Position numbers and translations under genes: made by a program
Virus record (IMG/VR): IMGVR_UViG_3300030107_001970
Coordinates: 8,908-43,912 of that record
Direction: 5' to 3' (one strand)
Origin: a virus
Length of the DNA: 35,005 bases
Notes under the pieces: model-generated
Databases searched by the model: none
What the model was told of the DNA's origin: nothing
The model's input: the letters and a program-made list of their open reading frames with translations, nothing else
Part shown: positions 8,567 to 27,902 of the stretch, piece after piece
Position numbering within the stretch: the stretch's first letter is position 1
Layout: each line of letters opens with the position of its first letter

Positions 8567-8783
8567 CGAACTTTTTAAGTGAGTCCTTAAGATTGGATGA
8601 ACAATCAGGAGGTTCAGGTTCTACTATACCATGAATCTTCTTCCATTTGTTGTGCAATGCACCCATCATCCAAGATTGAGCAAGACTCCTAGGACCATTC
8701 TCAAGAAGATCTAACTCATACCTACTAGAAGTATATGCTTTATAATCTTCTCTCCAATTGGAATCATCATAGGGTTTGTCCAT
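8553..8783 (-). CDS. Unknown protein, 76 aa
   Basis: A 76-residue soluble protein beginning MDKPYDDSNWREDYKAYTSS, with several aromatic residues and a central SLAQSWMMGALHNKWKK helix. It overlaps the epimerase stop by 17 bases and the following basic small gene by 14. No signal, membrane segment or catalytic motif is visible. Its position among overlapping co-directional genes supports expression. I do not recognise a family beyond a general resemblance to short cyanophage proteins. Confidence 0.68.
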   Translation of the reverse strand: MDKPYDDSNWREDYKAYTSSRYELDLLENGPRSLAQSWMMGALHNKWKKIHGIVEPEPPDCSSNLKDSLKKFDEIT

Positions 8784-9678
8784 TAATCCAATCCTCCAGA
8801 TCTACAGTTGGTCTCCAACCAAAGATTAACCTGAGTAAAGTATTCTGTGCAAGTGTTTCTCTTGCTTCACCAGTTCTCTCTGGAATATATGTGATCCTAT
8901 TATCTAGGCATGTGACCATTCTTGCAACTTGATTAACAGAATAGTTTGTACCATTACCTACATTATAAACTTCTCCATAATCCTCATCTTTAATATCAGT
9001 AACAGCAGCAAGATAATTTGCATGAACTACATCAGACACATGTGTAAAGTCTCTACGTTGCTCACCATCACCAACAACAGTTAACTTCTCACCTGCTGCT
9101 CTTTGACGTAAGAATATACCAATAACAGGAGCATACTGTCCTCTTAGTGGTTGACGCTCACCATAGACATTAAAGTATCTAAAGATAACAGTCTTAAGAC
9201 CAAATAGATCTGTGTACATCTTACACAACTTCTCACCAGCAACCTTAGATACTGAATAAGGATTTAAACAATCCTCTGGGTTACACTCAGCATTTGGTGT
9301 CTTACCCATACCATAAGCAGATGATGTAGATGAATACATTACCTTCTTCACACCTGCTTCTCTAGCACATTGCAAGACCGTTGTAGTACCTACACAGTTG
9401 ATCTCAACTGCTTTTATAGGATTCTCAATTGCTGGTTGAATTCTTGCTTCTGCTGCAATATGGAATACGTAATCAACACCATCATATAATGGTCTTGTAT
9501 TCTCATAATCACAGATATCAAACTTATGATTCTCTGCTTTATCATTCCAGTAAAACTGATCATGAGCATCAGAATACTCATTGTCAATTACAATCACCTC
9601 ATGTCCTTCTGAAAGAAGTTTATCTACGAGGTTTGATCCTATGAATCCTGCTCCTCCAGTTACTAATGATCTTGTCAT
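8767..9678 (-). CDS. NAD-dependent sugar-nucleotide epimerase/dehydratase (extended SDR)
   Basis: A 303-residue extended short-chain dehydrogenase related to UDP-glucose/UDP-GlcNAc 4-epimerases. The Rossmann motif TGGAGFIG is at about 7-14, the SSTSSAYG strand at 116-123 and the catalytic YSVSK at 141-145. The later blocks FRYFNVYGERQ and the DGEQRRDFTHVSDVV substrate region are also present. It would interconvert a nucleotide sugar, perhaps for host surface polysaccharide change, virion glycan or DNA modification. It sits between recombination gene 46 and small unknown genes with no other sugar gene in view, so the pathway is undetermined. It overlaps gp46 by four bases. Confidence 0.88.
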   Translation of the reverse strand: MTRSLVTGGAGFIGSNLVDKLLSEGHEVIVIDNEYSDAHDQFYWNDKAENHKFDICDYENTRPLYDGVDYVFHIAAEARIQPAIENPIKAVEINCVGTTTVLQCAREAGVKKVMYSSTSSAYGMGKTPNAECNPEDCLNPYSVSKVAGEKLCKMYTDLFGLKTVIFRYFNVYGERQPLRGQYAPVIGIFLRQRAAGEKLTVVGDGEQRRDFTHVSDVVHANYLAAVTDIKDEDYGEVYNVGNGTNYSVNQVARMVTCLDNRITYIPERTGEARETLAQNTLLRLIFGWRPTVDLEDWINGQTL

Positions 9679-23005: not shown

Positions 23006-23179
23006 CTATTCTTCTGATTCAGGAGATTCTTCTGCTTGTGGAGCAAACGCTGAATCATGTACAGAAGGCTTCATTCCATCAATTCTCTCAGAAGATTTTG
23101 TGTATAAAATATCTTTAATTTTATCGGTAATATCAGACGCAGATGCATCATTTACAACCATATCTAAAAGTTCATCCAT
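23006..23179 (-). CDS. Small head-cluster protein, 57 aa (prohead-core candidate)
   Basis: A 57-residue frame from ATG 23177-23179 to TAG 23006-23008. It begins MDELLDMVVNDASASDITDK and continues with a helix (IKDILYTKSSERIDGM), ending in an acidic tail of glutamates and serines. T4 has small acidic core proteins (gp67, gp68) just upstream of gp21, and cyanophages carry a short protein with a DMVVND..S..I.DKIKD-type start in this place. A core or scaffold role is therefore reasonable but unproven. A CTAAATA element 27 bases upstream may be its late promoter. The radical SAM operon starts 67 bases away on the other strand. Confidence 0.78.
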   Translation of the reverse strand: MDELLDMVVNDASASDITDKIKDILYTKSSERIDGMKPSVHDSAFAPQAEESPESEE

Positions 23180-23199
23180 TGTCTTTTATAAAGTAATTT

Positions 23200-23214
23200 G
23201 CTAAACTATTTAGC
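23200..23214. other. Short palindrome between divergent promoters
   Basis: GCTAAA and TTTAGC, a perfect 6-base inverted repeat with a 3-base centre. It contains the minus-strand CTAAATA element and abuts the plus-strand AATAAATA. It could bind a dimeric protein or fold as a small RNA hairpin. Confidence 0.45.
23207..23214 (-). promoter_or_regulatory. Late-type element GCTAAATA for the 57-aa head gene
   Basis: On the minus strand, CTAAATA matches the last seven positions of the late -10 consensus with one change. It lies 27 bases before the 57-aa gene ATG, the same distance range as the other late elements in this window. Confidence 0.5.
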
Positions 23215-23222
23215 AATAAATA
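23215..23222 (+). promoter_or_regulatory. Late-type promoter element AATAAATA for the radical SAM operon
   Basis: A plus-strand match to the late -10 sequence (seven of eight bases), 24 bases upstream of the first radical SAM gene. The SD-like AAGAAGGAG (23225-23233) lies between it and the ATG. A predicted start near 23228 would give a leader of about 20 bases. The same AATAAATA form occurs before gp18 and gp20. Confidence 0.6.
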
Positions 23223-23246
23223 CCAAGAAGGAGTACAGATATCAAT

Positions 23247-25109
23247 ATGGTGGCGAACGTCTACCTATTTCAACCACAGTTTTCAGTTGAAGTTAGAAAG
23301 GAAGATAACTATTGGATGCCGTATAGTGCTGCATGCTTATGGAGCTACTGTACACAATTTGAAGACATAAATGAGCACTATAAATTTAAAGAACTTTTCT
23401 TTAAAAGAGAACATCCAGATAAAATTTTAGAACGTTTAGATAACCCAGTAGTATGTGGGTTTAGTTGCTTTGTATGGAATGTTCAATATCAATTACATAT
23501 AGCAGAGATAATTAAAAATAAATATCCAAATTGTATTATTGAATTTGGTGGTCCTCAGACTACCCAAAAAATGCTTGATGATAACGACTTTATAGATTGT
23601 ATCCAACTTGGTGGTGATGGAGAACCACACTTCTTAGATCTACTTAGAAGTGTAAGAGATGGTAATGAGATAAAAAAAGTTTATGAAAGAGATAGATTAA
23701 AAGAACTAAACTTTATAAGTCCGTATCAAGCAGGAGTATTTGATAAACTAGTAGAAGATAATCCAGATACTATATGGGCAGCTATTATAGAGACTAATAG
23801 AGGTTGCCCACATATGTGTACTTACTGTGATTGGGGTGGAACCACTTACGGTAGAGTTAATAAGTTTGACATGGGAAGAGTACAAGATGATTTAAATTGG
23901 ATCATTAATCATAAATGTCAATACCTATTCTGTATTGATGCCAACTTTGGAATTTTTAGGAAGAGAGATTTAGAAATAGCACAAATGCTACGAGATGCAG
24001 CAGATCATCCAGATAGTATAATTGAAGATATTGTTGTACAAGATTCTAAAAATGGAACATCTGGATTTGAAATATCACATGTATTAGGAGAATATGATAG
24101 GAGAGGTGTTACTATAAGCGTTCAAAGTATGAACCAACCAACTTTAAAAGCAATCAAGAGGGAAAATTTAAAATTAAATGATATTGCAAGTCATATGAAA
24201 TTAGCAAATAAGTGGGGTGTTATGTCATACACTGAACTTATTCTTGGTCTTCCTGAAGAGACATTTGAATCTTGGAAGGAAGGATTCTGTGCTCTATTAG
24301 AAGCAGGTCAACACTATTCTATTGATGTTTGGTTTTGCCAAGTATTTGGTAATACTGAATTAAATAGTGAATTATCTAGGAAGATATATGGCATCAAAAC
24401 TATTACTGCAGAAGATTATATATCATTCTCCAATAGAAAAGATTATCAAGAAGTAAAAGAGACAATAGAACTTATTAATAAAACCAATACACTATCAACA
24501 GAAGATTTAGTACAATGCTACCTATATGGTTGGATGATAGTTCAATTCCATATAAATGGATACTCTCAATGGGTTGCCAAATATTATAGACATAAACTTG
24601 ATATACCATATAGAAAATTCTATGACACTATGTTTGAGAGAATAATTAAAGATGATGGACATATAGGAGAAAGTTATAGAAATCTATATGATAGAATTTA
24701 CAGTTATATGTCAACAGGAAAAGTTGCAGAAGATAAGGATAGAGGACATAAGTTAGAAATGTCTATGGCAACTGATCGTGATGCTCTCTTTGAATACAGA
24801 GAAAAGACTTTTGAATTTGTAAAAGAATGTGCGGATACCTTAGAAGGTGTAGATCCAGATTTATTCGCCTTCCAGAAGGAATACGTGTATAATCCTGAGA
24901 TAGAATATCCATTAATATTAAAACTTCCTTTTGATATTGAGACCCCTTGTTGGGATAATAAGGATATATATTATAAGATGACCAATTCTAGAACAGAAGA
25001 AATGAGGTACGATACATGGTTATTAATCAGAAGAGGATTAATGAAAAATGCTATCGTAAGAATGAAATCTCCTGTTATAGAATCGCATAAACTAGGGTTA
25101 CATGCATAA
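23247..25109 (+). CDS. Radical SAM protein with B12-binding-like N-terminal domain (copy 1)
   Basis: A 620-residue enzyme in three parts. Residues 1-140 look like the Rossmann-type cobalamin-binding domain of BchE-type radical SAM proteins (VVCGFSCFVWN, IIEFGGPQ at 97-104, GGDGEPHFLDLL), without the DxHxxG motif. Residues about 180-400 are the radical SAM barrel with the iron-sulfur motif CPHMCTYC (Cys187, 191, 194), then SVQSMNQPTLKAIKRENL and LILGLPEETFESW. The remaining ~220 residues are an unassigned helical region. Family members methylate unactivated carbons or phosphorus, or do other radical chemistry; the substrate is unknown. It overlaps copy 2 by eight bases. Plus-strand orientation within a minus-strand head module is unusual. 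SD spacing to this ATG is long (13 bases). Confidence 0.87.
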   Translation: MVANVYLFQPQFSVEVRKEDNYWMPYSAACLWSYCTQFEDINEHYKFKELFFKREHPDKILERLDNPVVCGFSCFVWNVQYQLHIAEIIKNKYPNCIIEFGGPQTTQKMLDDNDFIDCIQLGGDGEPHFLDLLRSVRDGNEIKKVYERDRLKELNFISPYQAGVFDKLVEDNPDTIWAAIIETNRGCPHMCTYCDWGGTTYGRVNKFDMGRVQDDLNWIINHKCQYLFCIDANFGIFRKRDLEIAQMLRDAADHPDSIIEDIVVQDSKNGTSGFEISHVLGEYDRRGVTISVQSMNQPTLKAIKRENLKLNDIASHMKLANKWGVMSYTELILGLPEETFESWKEGFCALLEAGQHYSIDVWFCQVFGNTELNSELSRKIYGIKTITAEDYISFSNRKDYQEVKETIELINKTNTLSTEDLVQCYLYGWMIVQFHINGYSQWVAKYYRHKLDIPYRKFYDTMFERIIKDDGHIGESYRNLYDRIYSYMSTGKVAEDKDRGHKLEMSMATDRDALFEYREKTFEFVKECADTLEGVDPDLFAFQKEYVYNPEIEYPLILKLPFDIETPCWDNKDIYYKMTNSRTEEMRYDTWLLIRRGLMKNAIVRMKSPVIESHKLGLHA

Positions 25110-26943
25110 CGTCTACATGTTCCAACCACAGTATGCTGTGGAAATAAGAAAAGAAGACACCTACTGGTTGCCTTATAGTGTAGGGTGTCTATGGAGTTAT
25201 TGTAGTCAGTTCAAAGATATTACAGATAACTTTGAATTAAAAGAGTTTATATTCAGAAGAGAAGATCCAGCAGATATATTAGATCGTTTAGATAATCCAG
25301 CAATATGTGCGTTTAGTTGTTATATTTGGAATGAACGCTATAATTTACATGTAGCAAAATTAATCAAAGAGAAGTATCCAGACTGTATTATTGAATTTGG
25401 TGGTCCTCAAGGAACAAAACATTTACTTGAGTATGAATTTATAGACACCATCATCATCTCTGAAGGTGAAGAATCATTCTGTGATCTTCTACGAAAGATT
25501 AATAATAATGAATCAATTGAACGTGTTTATGCTAAGGAAAGAATTGAAGTCTTGGACTTCCCTAGCCCTTATCAGAGTGGTCTTTTTGATAATATCATTC
25601 AGAATAATCCTGATGTCATGTGGGCTATGACTATGGAGACTAATCGTGGTTGTCCACATATGTGTACTTACTGTGATTGGGGTGGAATGACATATCAGAA
25701 AATTAAAAAGTTTGACCTTGAACGGGTCAAACAAGACATTGAATGGGCAGGTGATCATAATGTTGGATTTATATTTAATGCTGATGCCAACTTCGGTATC
25801 TTTAGAGATAGAGATGTTGAGATTGCAAAGATGTTTAGAGAAGCAGCAGATAAAGGTAATCTAGAAGCAATCAATATTCAATACACTAAAAATTCTACAG
25901 AAGTTGTTTTTGAAATTGCAAAGATAGTTGGTGACATTAGTAGAGGAGTAACTATAAGTGTTCAGAGTATGAATGAACCTACACTTAAAGCAATTAAAAG
26001 AAAGAATATGAAGGTTAATCGGATAACCGAACAAATAGAGAAGAGTAAAGAATATGGAGTTAAAACATATACTGAATTTATTTTAGGTCTACCTGAAGAG
26101 ACCTTAGATTCATGGAAGGAAGGATTCTCAAAAGTTCTTGAATGCGGTCAACATGAATCAATTGACGTATGGTTCTGTCAACTATTTGGCAATACAGAAC
26201 TGAATAGTAAACTCTCAAGAGAATTACATGGAATAAAAACTATTAAGTCTGAAGATTATGTTTCCTTTGGTAATGACAGAGATTATGATGGAGTTGTAGA
26301 GATTATAGAACTCATCTCTGAGACAAATACAATGAGCAATGACGAATTAATAGAAGCATATATGTATGGTTGGTTAATTGTTCAATTCCATATTGCTGGT
26401 TACACTCAAGTAATATCAAAATACTTCCATAATAAATTGGACATATCATATAGAAGATTCTATGATTGCTTGTTTAATTATGTAAGAGAGAATGAAGGAA
26501 TGCTAGGAGATCATTATAGAGAGATCTTCACTTCAGTTAATCATTATATGAAAACTGGAAAAATATTAGATAAAGGTAAGCATGGTCATACTCTACATGC
26601 AGGAAGTTTTGCCTTCATGTTTAATAATAAAGAATATATCTTCTCAGAGATAGAGGATATGCTTATATCTCAAGCACCTATGATTGAAGAGTGGACTGAT
26701 ATAAACTATCCAATAGATCCCAATATATTCCATGCACAAAGATGTTTTATATTTGATGAGAACATAAAATATCCTCATGCATTTAGATCAAATTATGACT
26801 TAGACACATGGGAAGATAAACAAATTGATTATCTTATTGATACTGAATTTAAAAACTTTGATAAGAATAACCCACATGAGGTATTCATATTAAGACGCAA
26901 AGGTCTACTTAAGAATCAGATGAAGCAACTATGTACGGCTTAA
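25102..26943 (+). CDS. Radical SAM protein with B12-binding-like N-terminal domain (copy 2)
   Basis: A 613-residue paralogue of the preceding gene, alike over its whole length: MFQPQYAVEIRKEDTYWLPY against LFQPQFSVEVRKEDNYWMPY, ETNRGCPHMCTYCDWGG in both, and GVTISVQSMNEPTLKAIKR against GVTISVQSMNQPTLKAIKR. The cluster cysteines are 184, 188 and 191. The cobalamin-like domain contains IIEFGGPQ and SEGEESFCDLL. Its ATG lies inside the end of copy 1 (eight-base overlap), so the two are probably translated together and may form a heterodimer or act one after the other. The 3' end runs 35 bases into the opposing oxygenase-like gene. Confidence 0.87.
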   Translation: MHNVYMFQPQYAVEIRKEDTYWLPYSVGCLWSYCSQFKDITDNFELKEFIFRREDPADILDRLDNPAICAFSCYIWNERYNLHVAKLIKEKYPDCIIEFGGPQGTKHLLEYEFIDTIIISEGEESFCDLLRKINNNESIERVYAKERIEVLDFPSPYQSGLFDNIIQNNPDVMWAMTMETNRGCPHMCTYCDWGGMTYQKIKKFDLERVKQDIEWAGDHNVGFIFNADANFGIFRDRDVEIAKMFREAADKGNLEAINIQYTKNSTEVVFEIAKIVGDISRGVTISVQSMNEPTLKAIKRKNMKVNRITEQIEKSKEYGVKTYTEFILGLPEETLDSWKEGFSKVLECGQHESIDVWFCQLFGNTELNSKLSRELHGIKTIKSEDYVSFGNDRDYDGVVEIIELISETNTMSNDELIEAYMYGWLIVQFHIAGYTQVISKYFHNKLDISYRRFYDCLFNYVRENEGMLGDHYREIFTSVNHYMKTGKILDKGKHGHTLHAGSFAFMFNNKEYIFSEIEDMLISQAPMIEEWTDINYPIDPNIFHAQRCFIFDENIKYPHAFRSNYDLDTWEDKQIDYLIDTEFKNFDKNNPHEVFILRRKGLLKNQMKQLCTA

Positions 26944-27541
26944 ATGATTCTATTGCCTCATCCCAAAGGATTCTGTGTTCATAATTTTTATCCTTGTCTA
27001 TTAGAGCAATAGTAATAGTAAATCTCTTGTCATCTGTAGGGTTATGAGAACTATGCAGAGGACCAACATTAATAAGACTAGAAGTACCAACTTCCACTTC
27101 ATGCTCGATAGTGGACTCCTCTGGTCTAGCAACTAATACTTTGCCATGATAATGGTCATCTATTCTATCCCCACCTGCTCTTGGATCTACGGTGCTAACT
27201 TCAAATGCTTTATCAGAAGACCACCATCGCATAGTGCTTCCTTTAGCACCAATTTGATATACTATTTTTGCCCACGACCAATCACCAATATTATCAGAAT
27301 GTACAATACCATCCTCATGTGGTGGAGTATAAAAAAACTCTATCCAATGAGAACTATATCCCATACTGTTTAACCACGGGAGAATTTTATCATTACCTAA
27401 ATCTTCAAATTGTAGTTGCTTATGGAATTGCAACCATCCCATACCTTTAGTTTTATATTGTGATACGTCTATATTTGGAAGATAATCAGGTATATTTAAA
27501 AACCTATGATAATCTATTTTCAGATCCTCCTGTACGTTCAT
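26909..27541 (-). CDS. 2OG-Fe(II) oxygenase-like protein
   Basis: About 210 residues from the ATG at 27539-27541. The signature of the 2-oxoglutarate/iron oxygenase fold is visible: VHSDN (H81 and D83, HxD) and, about 80 residues later, GPLHSSHNPTDDKRFTITIA. The latter supplies the distal His (163 or 166) and the Arg (173) that would bind 2-oxoglutarate. Such enzymes hydroxylate proteins or small molecules. The frame is open to 27571, but all ATG starts lie inside the upstream gene; a strong AGGAGG at about 27525-27530 lies downstream of the chosen ATG, so the true start is uncertain. It converges with radical SAM copy 2, with a 35-base overlap. Confidence 0.7.
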   Translation of the reverse strand: MNVQEDLKIDYHRFLNIPDYLPNIDVSQYKTKGMGWLQFHKQLQFEDLGNDKILPWLNSMGYSSHWIEFFYTPPHEDGIVHSDNIGDWSWAKIVYQIGAKGSTMRWWSSDKAFEVSTVDPRAGGDRIDDHYHGKVLVARPEESTIEHEVEVGTSSLINVGPLHSSHNPTDDKRFTITIALIDKDKNYEHRILWDEAIESFKPYIVASSDS

Positions 27542-27902
27542 CAAAGTCATGGATATTCTCTGATCCACCAATAGCGAATGGATTATATTTACTAGTTGCT
27601 ATCTTATACATTTTTTCATGAACGGTCTCTTCTACTGGACCTTCATACTCCTGTCCATCTTCTTCATCAATAAACCAGTTTGCTACTTCTTCTTCTGGTC
27701 TTGGATTCTCTTCGATTGCAATCATTTCTAAATCTAATTCGGATCTACGTTCAGGTGGTGCATACTTGTTATCACCATTTGCTATTGGCATTGAATCATG
27801 TGGATGTGCCAATTCATTAATTACTCGATTCAACCAGTCAGTACTATCCTCATCTTTTTTTGCCTTAAGAGGAAACCAACTGGACGGATTTAGTGAGATC
27901 AT
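27504..27902 (-). CDS. Unknown head-module protein, 132 aa
   Basis: A 132-residue acidic protein following portal gene 20 after a one-base gap. It starts MISLNPSSWFPLKAKKDEDS and is rich in E, D, N and P, with no membrane segment (middle part RRSELDLEMIAIEENPRPEE). Cyanophages commonly have a hypothetical gene here, so it is likely part of the regular head module and not of the inserted segment. A structural or assembly role is suggested only by position. The oxygenase-like gene starts within its last 40 bases. Confidence 0.78.
   Translation of the reverse strand: MISLNPSSWFPLKAKKDEDSTDWLNRVINELAHPHDSMPIANGDNKYAPPERRSELDLEMIAIEENPRPEEEVANWFIDEEDGQEYEGPVEETVHEKMYKIATSKYNPFAIGGSENIHDFDERTGGSENRLS

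Follow-up and report, generated by a model that had tools for sequence, protein, structure and literature searches.

Locus and gene content

The locus described here raises the question of why radical SAM enzymes and an oxygenase-like protein should be encoded among the head genes of a T4-like phage, and what these enzymes might modify. The window analysed, a stretch of 35,005 nucleotides taken from an IMG/VR virus record of 43.9 kb, has P-SSM2-like cyanophages and single-cell marine viruses as its nearest deposited DNA relatives (~75% identity). Given this relatedness to cyanophages, we suspect that the host is a cyanobacterium. Two tandem radical SAM genes on the plus strand, RS1 (23247-25109; 620 aa) and RS2 (25102-26943; 613 aa), share 8 nt and encode paralogues that are 51% identical. 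Both point toward the minus-strand gene OX (26909 to probably 27517; ~202 aa), the last 35 nt of which are shared with the end of RS2. For RS1 and RS2 these coordinates, strands and lengths are exactly those of an initial annotation made from the sequence alone, and the oxygenase-like open reading frame occupies positions 26909-27571 of the minus strand.

Every other plausible gene of the window lies on the minus strand, in the T4-like head-module order that the annotation had described. On one side, the cassette is flanked by gp23, gp22, gp21 (Peptidase_S77) and a 57-aa protein (23006-23179, minus strand; phrog_14164), which adjoins gp21, is kept in cyanophages and represents the flank of the insertion, outside the cassette. 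On the other side are h132 (27504-27902, minus strand; 132 aa), which overlaps the start of OX, followed by the portal gene gp20, h199, gp18 and gp17, the last three labelled from position and homology to P-SSM2. The gp20-gp21 gap of P-SSM2 holds only one small protein, sized and placed like the 57-aa protein of the window. The sign of the GC skew is reversed across 23.0-26.9 kb of the window.

Comparison with a relative gave dN/dS values of 0.20 for RS1, 0.10 for RS2 and 0.08 for OX, and thus the three are not chance open reading frames. The gene h132, which is restricted to the marine clade of the window, evolves fast (dN/dS 0.22, versus 0.05-0.10 for its neighbours).

RS1 and RS2 as cobalamin-dependent radical SAM enzymes

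RS1 and RS2 almost certainly belong to the TokK/CysS type of class-1 cobalamin-dependent radical SAM enzymes. Both proteins carry the CPHMCTYC motif and match Pfam Radical_SAM, as the initial annotation had proposed, and its B12-binding-like domain is matched as well, but under the gathering score. Sequence searches of the PDB retrieved TokK (E 2.9e-75 for RS2 and 2.5e-64 for RS1) and CysS (2.1e-40 and 1e-34, respectively). The KedN5 C-methyltransferase family (NF033712) is the top NCBIfam model for both proteins by ~30 orders of magnitude, although the scores of 152 bits for RS1 and 184 bits for RS2 place both outside this family, for which the curated cut-off is 700.

An AlphaFold2 model of RS2 (residues 1-613; mean pLDDT 88.7) superposes on TokK with a Z of 34.4 and an rmsd of 3.0 over 589 aligned residues, and on CysS with a Z of 30.1; the remaining solved relatives reach a Z of at most 19. 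The model has the three-domain layout of an N-terminal Rossmann cobalamin domain, a radical SAM domain and a C-terminal domain. The last of these had been taken for a novel region of ~220 residues. Structure prediction, one of the checks proposed at that stage for residues 400-620, instead extends the TokK/CysS-type assignment through this region. The superposition of the RS2 model, which is TokK-like throughout, identifies the region as the C-terminal domain of the TokK/CysS group and rules out a novel domain.

The three cysteines of the CxxxCxxC motif that would bind the [4Fe-4S] cluster (C184, C188 and C191) are invariant in 44 sequences. The same is true of W76, which aligns without gaps to TokK W76. 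This tryptophan (Trp76 in TokK, Trp75 in CysS) lies below the cobalt (PMC12846815). In the alignment, the equivalent of CysS Trp188 is retained as RS2 W174, while the substrate-contacting CysS residues Trp271 and Ser273 are replaced, which suggests that the phage enzymes share the chemistry of CysS but act on a different substrate. Most likely, RS1 and RS2 would use the [4Fe-4S] cluster, SAM and cobalamin or pseudocobalamin to transfer methyl groups onto unactivated carbons.

OX as a putative hydroxylase

OX matched no sequence family in Pfam (E 0.1), NCBIfam or PHROG, and a sequence search of the PDB gave no meaningful match. An alignment-based model (pLDDT 76.8) adopts a double-stranded beta-helix, and, by their titles, almost all of its top 50 structural matches are oxygenases of the 2OG or a related non-heme kind. 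On a second look, proline 3-hydroxylase and a nucleoside-antibiotic hydroxylase lead the structural ranking, with a best Z of 8.5, which is moderate. H91-x-D93, H173 and R183 (numbering of the 220-aa reading) are invariant in 22 sequences. Given the beta-helix fold and the invariant HxD...H...R pattern, OX is very probably an Fe(II)/2OG hydroxylase. These features fit the 2OG-Fe(II)-oxygenase-like gene facing the radical SAM pair that had first been described.

The open reading frame of OX extends to a TTG at 27571, but translation probably starts at a non-canonical ATA codon at 27517. In several marine relatives, a stop codon interrupts the frame between the two positions, and the sequence is conserved downstream of it, which argues for the ATA. 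An AGGAGG sequence lies eight bases upstream of this codon, within the end of h132, and in other clades the OX protein starts with MN-x-YHRF at the matching position.

A conserved module

Relatives of OX were found on 61 viral contigs. gp20 adjoins OX in all 58 contigs with readable upstream sequence, and a convergent radical SAM gene is present in all 54 with readable downstream sequence. A survey based on gp21 found the cassette in 44 of its 60 nearest relatives for which the sequence could be read; down to ~82% gp21 identity, no readable relative lacked it. gp23 seemed to be missing from L130 and L136, but this stemmed from the choice of open reading frames; the gene is present in both, where it is 93-94% identical.

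We also compared 38 distinct gp21-gp20 intervals that are complete; the cassette queries themselves enrich this set. Radical SAM genes are present in 27, and these intervals often include OX (20/27) or a gene for a GT25-like glycosyltransferase (19/27), and occasionally a third radical SAM gene (2/27). Neither OX nor the GT25-like gene was found in any of the 11 intervals that lack radical SAM genes. Gene order and opposite orientation are constant across cassettes. Taken together, these surveys bear out the suggestion that two radical SAM enzymes and one oxygenase form a modification cassette, and they supply the survey of co-occurrence in other phages that had been proposed with it. The fixed partnership makes it quite likely that RS1, RS2 and OX act in one shared pathway. 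Its steps are separable, given that OX is missing from 7 of the 27 intervals with radical SAM genes and that 2 of the 27 have a single radical SAM gene.

The initial annotation had held that independent scattering of these genes in other phages would speak against a cassette. Relatives of RS2 do stand alone in other phages, but OX does not. The lone RS2 relatives occur in sugar-gene neighbourhoods (L181-L189) or, in L154, beside a DnaB-like helicase gene. The L154 protein is 68% identical to RS2, and its isolated location indicates that an RS2-type gene can move alone.

Whole-gene exchange of RS1

The two radical SAM positions differ in their history, with RS2 conserved and RS1 exchangeable. 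Between the window and locus L006, protein identity is 96% for gp21, 95% for RS2, 97% for OX and 98% for gp20, but only 51% for RS1. The corresponding DNA is 99-100% identical just before RS1, falls to ~35-70% across it and returns to 90-99% at RS2, so that the breakpoints coincide with the edges of the gene. The reverse case is found in L002, where RS1 is 91% identical to that of the window although gp21 is 87% identical, with a dS of 0.22 in RS1 versus 1.40 in gp21. Among 135 pairs of loci with RS2 at least 85% identical, which are not independent of one another, RS1 is less than 60% identical in 68.

An assembly chimera is an unlikely source of this pattern, given a second IMG/VR contig, from another sample, that is 99.9% identical over 4 kb including RS1, and the recurrence of the split in those 68 pairs. 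dN/dS is well below 1 in all genes compared. The drop in identity, the reverse case in L002 and these dN/dS values together indicate that the RS1 position carries exchangeable, functional alleles that are swapped as whole genes.

Timing of expression

The start codon of RS1 is preceded at a distance of 25 nt by the T4-type late-promoter motif ATAAATA (23216-23222, plus strand), which is followed by AAGGAG, a ribosome-binding-like sequence read at 23228-23233 on the same strand. Four other genes of the window, gp22, gp21, gp20 and gp18, are closely preceded by the same motif. Of 59 related loci, which were not deduplicated, 43 have it near the leading plus-strand gene of the cassette, from up to 150 nt upstream of this gene to 90 nt into it, as measured from the start in the annotation. 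Several of the loci without the motif have a small gene in front of the cassette. Across the window as a whole, ATAAATA shows no enrichment (13 found, 17 expected), and thus only its position is informative. Given the motif before RS1 and the orientation of OX in the direction of gp20 transcription, we predict that the cassette is expressed late, as had been surmised, and consider this likely.

Distribution and origin

Relatives of the cassette radical SAM genes occur in at least 577 candidate stretches of IMG/VR, and a search of 50,697 deposited phage records gave one distant match. A maximum-likelihood tree unites the phage proteins in a single clade (support 100/100), within which RS2 is a single group (100/98) and RS1 falls into several. 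Two long records that contain the cassette (149 and 247 kb) have two Photo_RC genes each, as psbA and psbD would give, and for this reason their hosts are likely cyanobacteria.

The nearest well-placed cellular relatives among the matches listed are only ~30-35% identical and belong to gut Clostridia. In some of these (L047, L048, L049 and L067), two or three tandem B12 radical SAM paralogues of ~640 aa, of the same group, are found. Clear orthology to a host pathway enzyme had been named as a finding that could explain the function without the neighbouring genes; no such orthologue is present among the cellular matches listed.

These results bear on the possibility that the cassette consists of auxiliary metabolic genes whose target is a host metabolite, for instance a lipid, tetrapyrrole or cofactor, with an accidental location among head genes. 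Cyanophages carry many auxiliary metabolic genes, and B12 radical SAM enzymes include the lipid and tetrapyrrole enzymes HpnJ and BchE. However, the HpnJ and BchE models match RS1 and RS2 ~30 orders of magnitude more weakly than KedN5, and the 78 best cellular loci listed include no cyanobacterial relative, and so give no sign of a gene taken from the host. Nor would a housekeeping supplement be expected to keep a fixed place among late genes or to exchange RS1 alleles, and we consider this explanation very unlikely.

Possible substrates and targets

Gene neighbours in relatives, rather than in the window itself, make the case for a sugar. The GT25-like glycosyltransferase gene that accompanies many cassettes is absent from that of the window. 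Its product matches cyanophage glycosyltransferases, many of them annotated as GT25, in tblastn searches (E as low as 3e-45) and has an invariant EDD-type acidic motif, MEDDYDLS. Its best match to Pfam Glyco_transf_25 (E 0.036, 14 bits) is below the cut-off of 24 bits, and a PDB search gave no match. In the distant phage relatives L181-L189, an NDP-sugar epimerase gene is adjacent to the RS2 relative, and several of these loci also have a DegT aminotransferase, GTP cyclohydrolase I and further radical SAM genes. The window has an NDP-sugar epimerase gene of its own (8767-9678), amid replication genes, and the epimerase genes of L181-L189 are its distant relatives. We regard the chance that the substrate is a sugar or glycan as about even. 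The initial annotation had considered a capsid or tail protein a natural candidate for the target; we rate glycan or sugar chemistry as no less likely.

Display of the product on the virion is possible, if somewhat doubtful. It is suggested by the position of the cassette, its predicted timing, the variability of RS1, and the occurrence of virion-like proteins at this junction in other phages of the group. In L227, L231, L250, L267 and L137, the gp20-gp21 junction has sense-strand genes for virion-like proteins, either of the MAQWN...QERSLFE type (413-641 aa) or a fibre-like protein of 1697 aa. In one case such a protein co-occurs with the radical SAM pair.

The explanation that we tentatively favour, at slightly below an even chance, is a pathway active late in infection, in which a single moiety of a glycan or amino-sugar type on the virion is C-methylated, hydroxylated and in many cases also glycosylated. 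In this scenario, RS2 would add a common methyl group, RS1 would add one that differs between lineages, and the unit that they methylate would be hydroxylated by OX. In many relatives the GT25-like enzyme would transfer the modified group, which might then be displayed on the particle. Whole-gene exchange of RS1 could alter the exact decoration, as would be expected if a host receptor, a host defence or a superinfecting phage reads it. A bolder version, which we consider rather unlikely, is that the cassette is a modular virion-decoration locus of uncultured cyanophages in which one C-methylase stays constant and its partner is swapped between strains as an entire allele, shifting particle chemistry in a serotype-like manner. 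Against a glycan substrate, TokK and CysS act on pantetheine-linked small molecules (PMC12846815), and the cassette of the window has no GT25-like gene, the GT25 assignment itself being under the Pfam cut-off. Moreover, the gp20-gp21 junction looks like an insertion hotspot, and the location beside head genes could reflect this rather than the target.

The position in the head module and the late-promoter motif would equally suit direct modification of virion-protein side chains (e.g., of gp20, gp23 or h132), in which C-methylation and hydroxylation would occur in a RiPP-like manner without a dedicated precursor. The fold of OX, like that of proline 3-hydroxylase and ribosomal-protein hydroxylases, is consistent with such a role, as are weak matches to RiPP C-methyltransferase models. 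Those matches, however, are far below the cut-offs and below KedN5, the nearest solved relatives use small molecules, and h132 is missing from relatives that retain the cassette enzymes. The overlapping genes in the cassette of the window also leave no space for a precursor gene. We consider protein modification of this kind unlikely. A RiPP cluster with its own precursor was rejected, as RS1, RS2, OX and h132 overlap and the far side has only the conserved 57-aa phage protein.

We judge it similarly unlikely that the enzymes make a diffusible, natural-product-like small molecule that acts on the infected host, competing phages or neighbouring cells. KedN5, TokK and CysS are natural-product enzymes, and OX superposes on antibiotic-pathway hydroxylases (7v4m, EvdMO1 and AviO1) about as well as on any other structure. 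Yet two or three enzymes do not make a biosynthetic pathway, genes for scaffold building, transport or resistance are absent nearby, and late expression would leave little time for a diffusible product.

Comparison with known systems

If the product of the favoured decoration pathway is carried on the virion, it would represent a phage surface chemistry without a description in the open-access papers searched. It would also depend on a vitamin that most cyanobacteria make only as pseudo-B12 (PMC5816740). In that case RS1 alleles would offer a genetic handle on selection for surface variation, and the idea that RS1 exchange changes the decoration is testable by comparison of natural strains.

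Glycosyltransferases encoded by mycobacteriophages, an analogy for what the cyanophage cassette might do, have been proposed to decorate the phages' own capsids, and excerpts of that report do not include radical SAM enzymes in virion glycosylation (PMC11256854). Radical SAM genes in marine phages are mentioned in general terms in excerpts of other studies, without the composition or site of a cassette (PMC5332604, PMC7029224, PMC7150976, PMC9301287). A comparable arrangement is a sugar island in the cultured Synechococcus phage S-SCSM2R (L191; PQ898602.1, ~226-236 kb), in which GT25 glycosyltransferases, several 2OG oxygenases, an amidinotransferase and a radical SAM maturase are adjacent. 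Unlike the cassette, this island lies outside the gp20-gp21 gap, its radical SAM protein is annotated as SkfB/NifB/PqqE-like rather than B12-type, and no OX or RS1 homologue was found in it. The initial view that no described phage system has this composition agrees with our searches, in that nothing alike was found in the deposited phage records, and no phage cassette of like composition and place in the open-access papers searched.

Among individual enzymes, TokK (a carbapenem methylase of Streptomyces) and CysS (a cystobactamid methylase) share with RS2 the whole-chain fold, the three domains, the CxxxCxxC motif and the tryptophan below the cobalt. However, the phage enzymes are only ~22-26% identical to them, retain the substrate-contact positions only in part and, unlike TokK and CysS, are encoded as tandem pairs with a hydroxylase. 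KedN5 is the top-scoring family model for all phage copies tested, but at 149-184 bits they are well short of its cut-off and are not members of the family. OX shares the beta-helix, the HxD motif, the distal His and an Arg ten residues later with Fe(II)/2OG hydroxylases of the proline 3-hydroxylase type, although the structural match is limited to the Z of 8.5 and has no counterpart in family or PDB sequence searches. In proline 3-hydroxylase, the spacing from His to Arg is the same as in OX.

Antibiotic pathways are the best-known setting for cobalamin-dependent radical SAM methylases, and here such enzymes are encoded on hundreds of viral contigs. The parts of the cassette are known kinds of enzymes; what is new is their combination, their fixed partnership and the exchange of RS1 as a whole gene.
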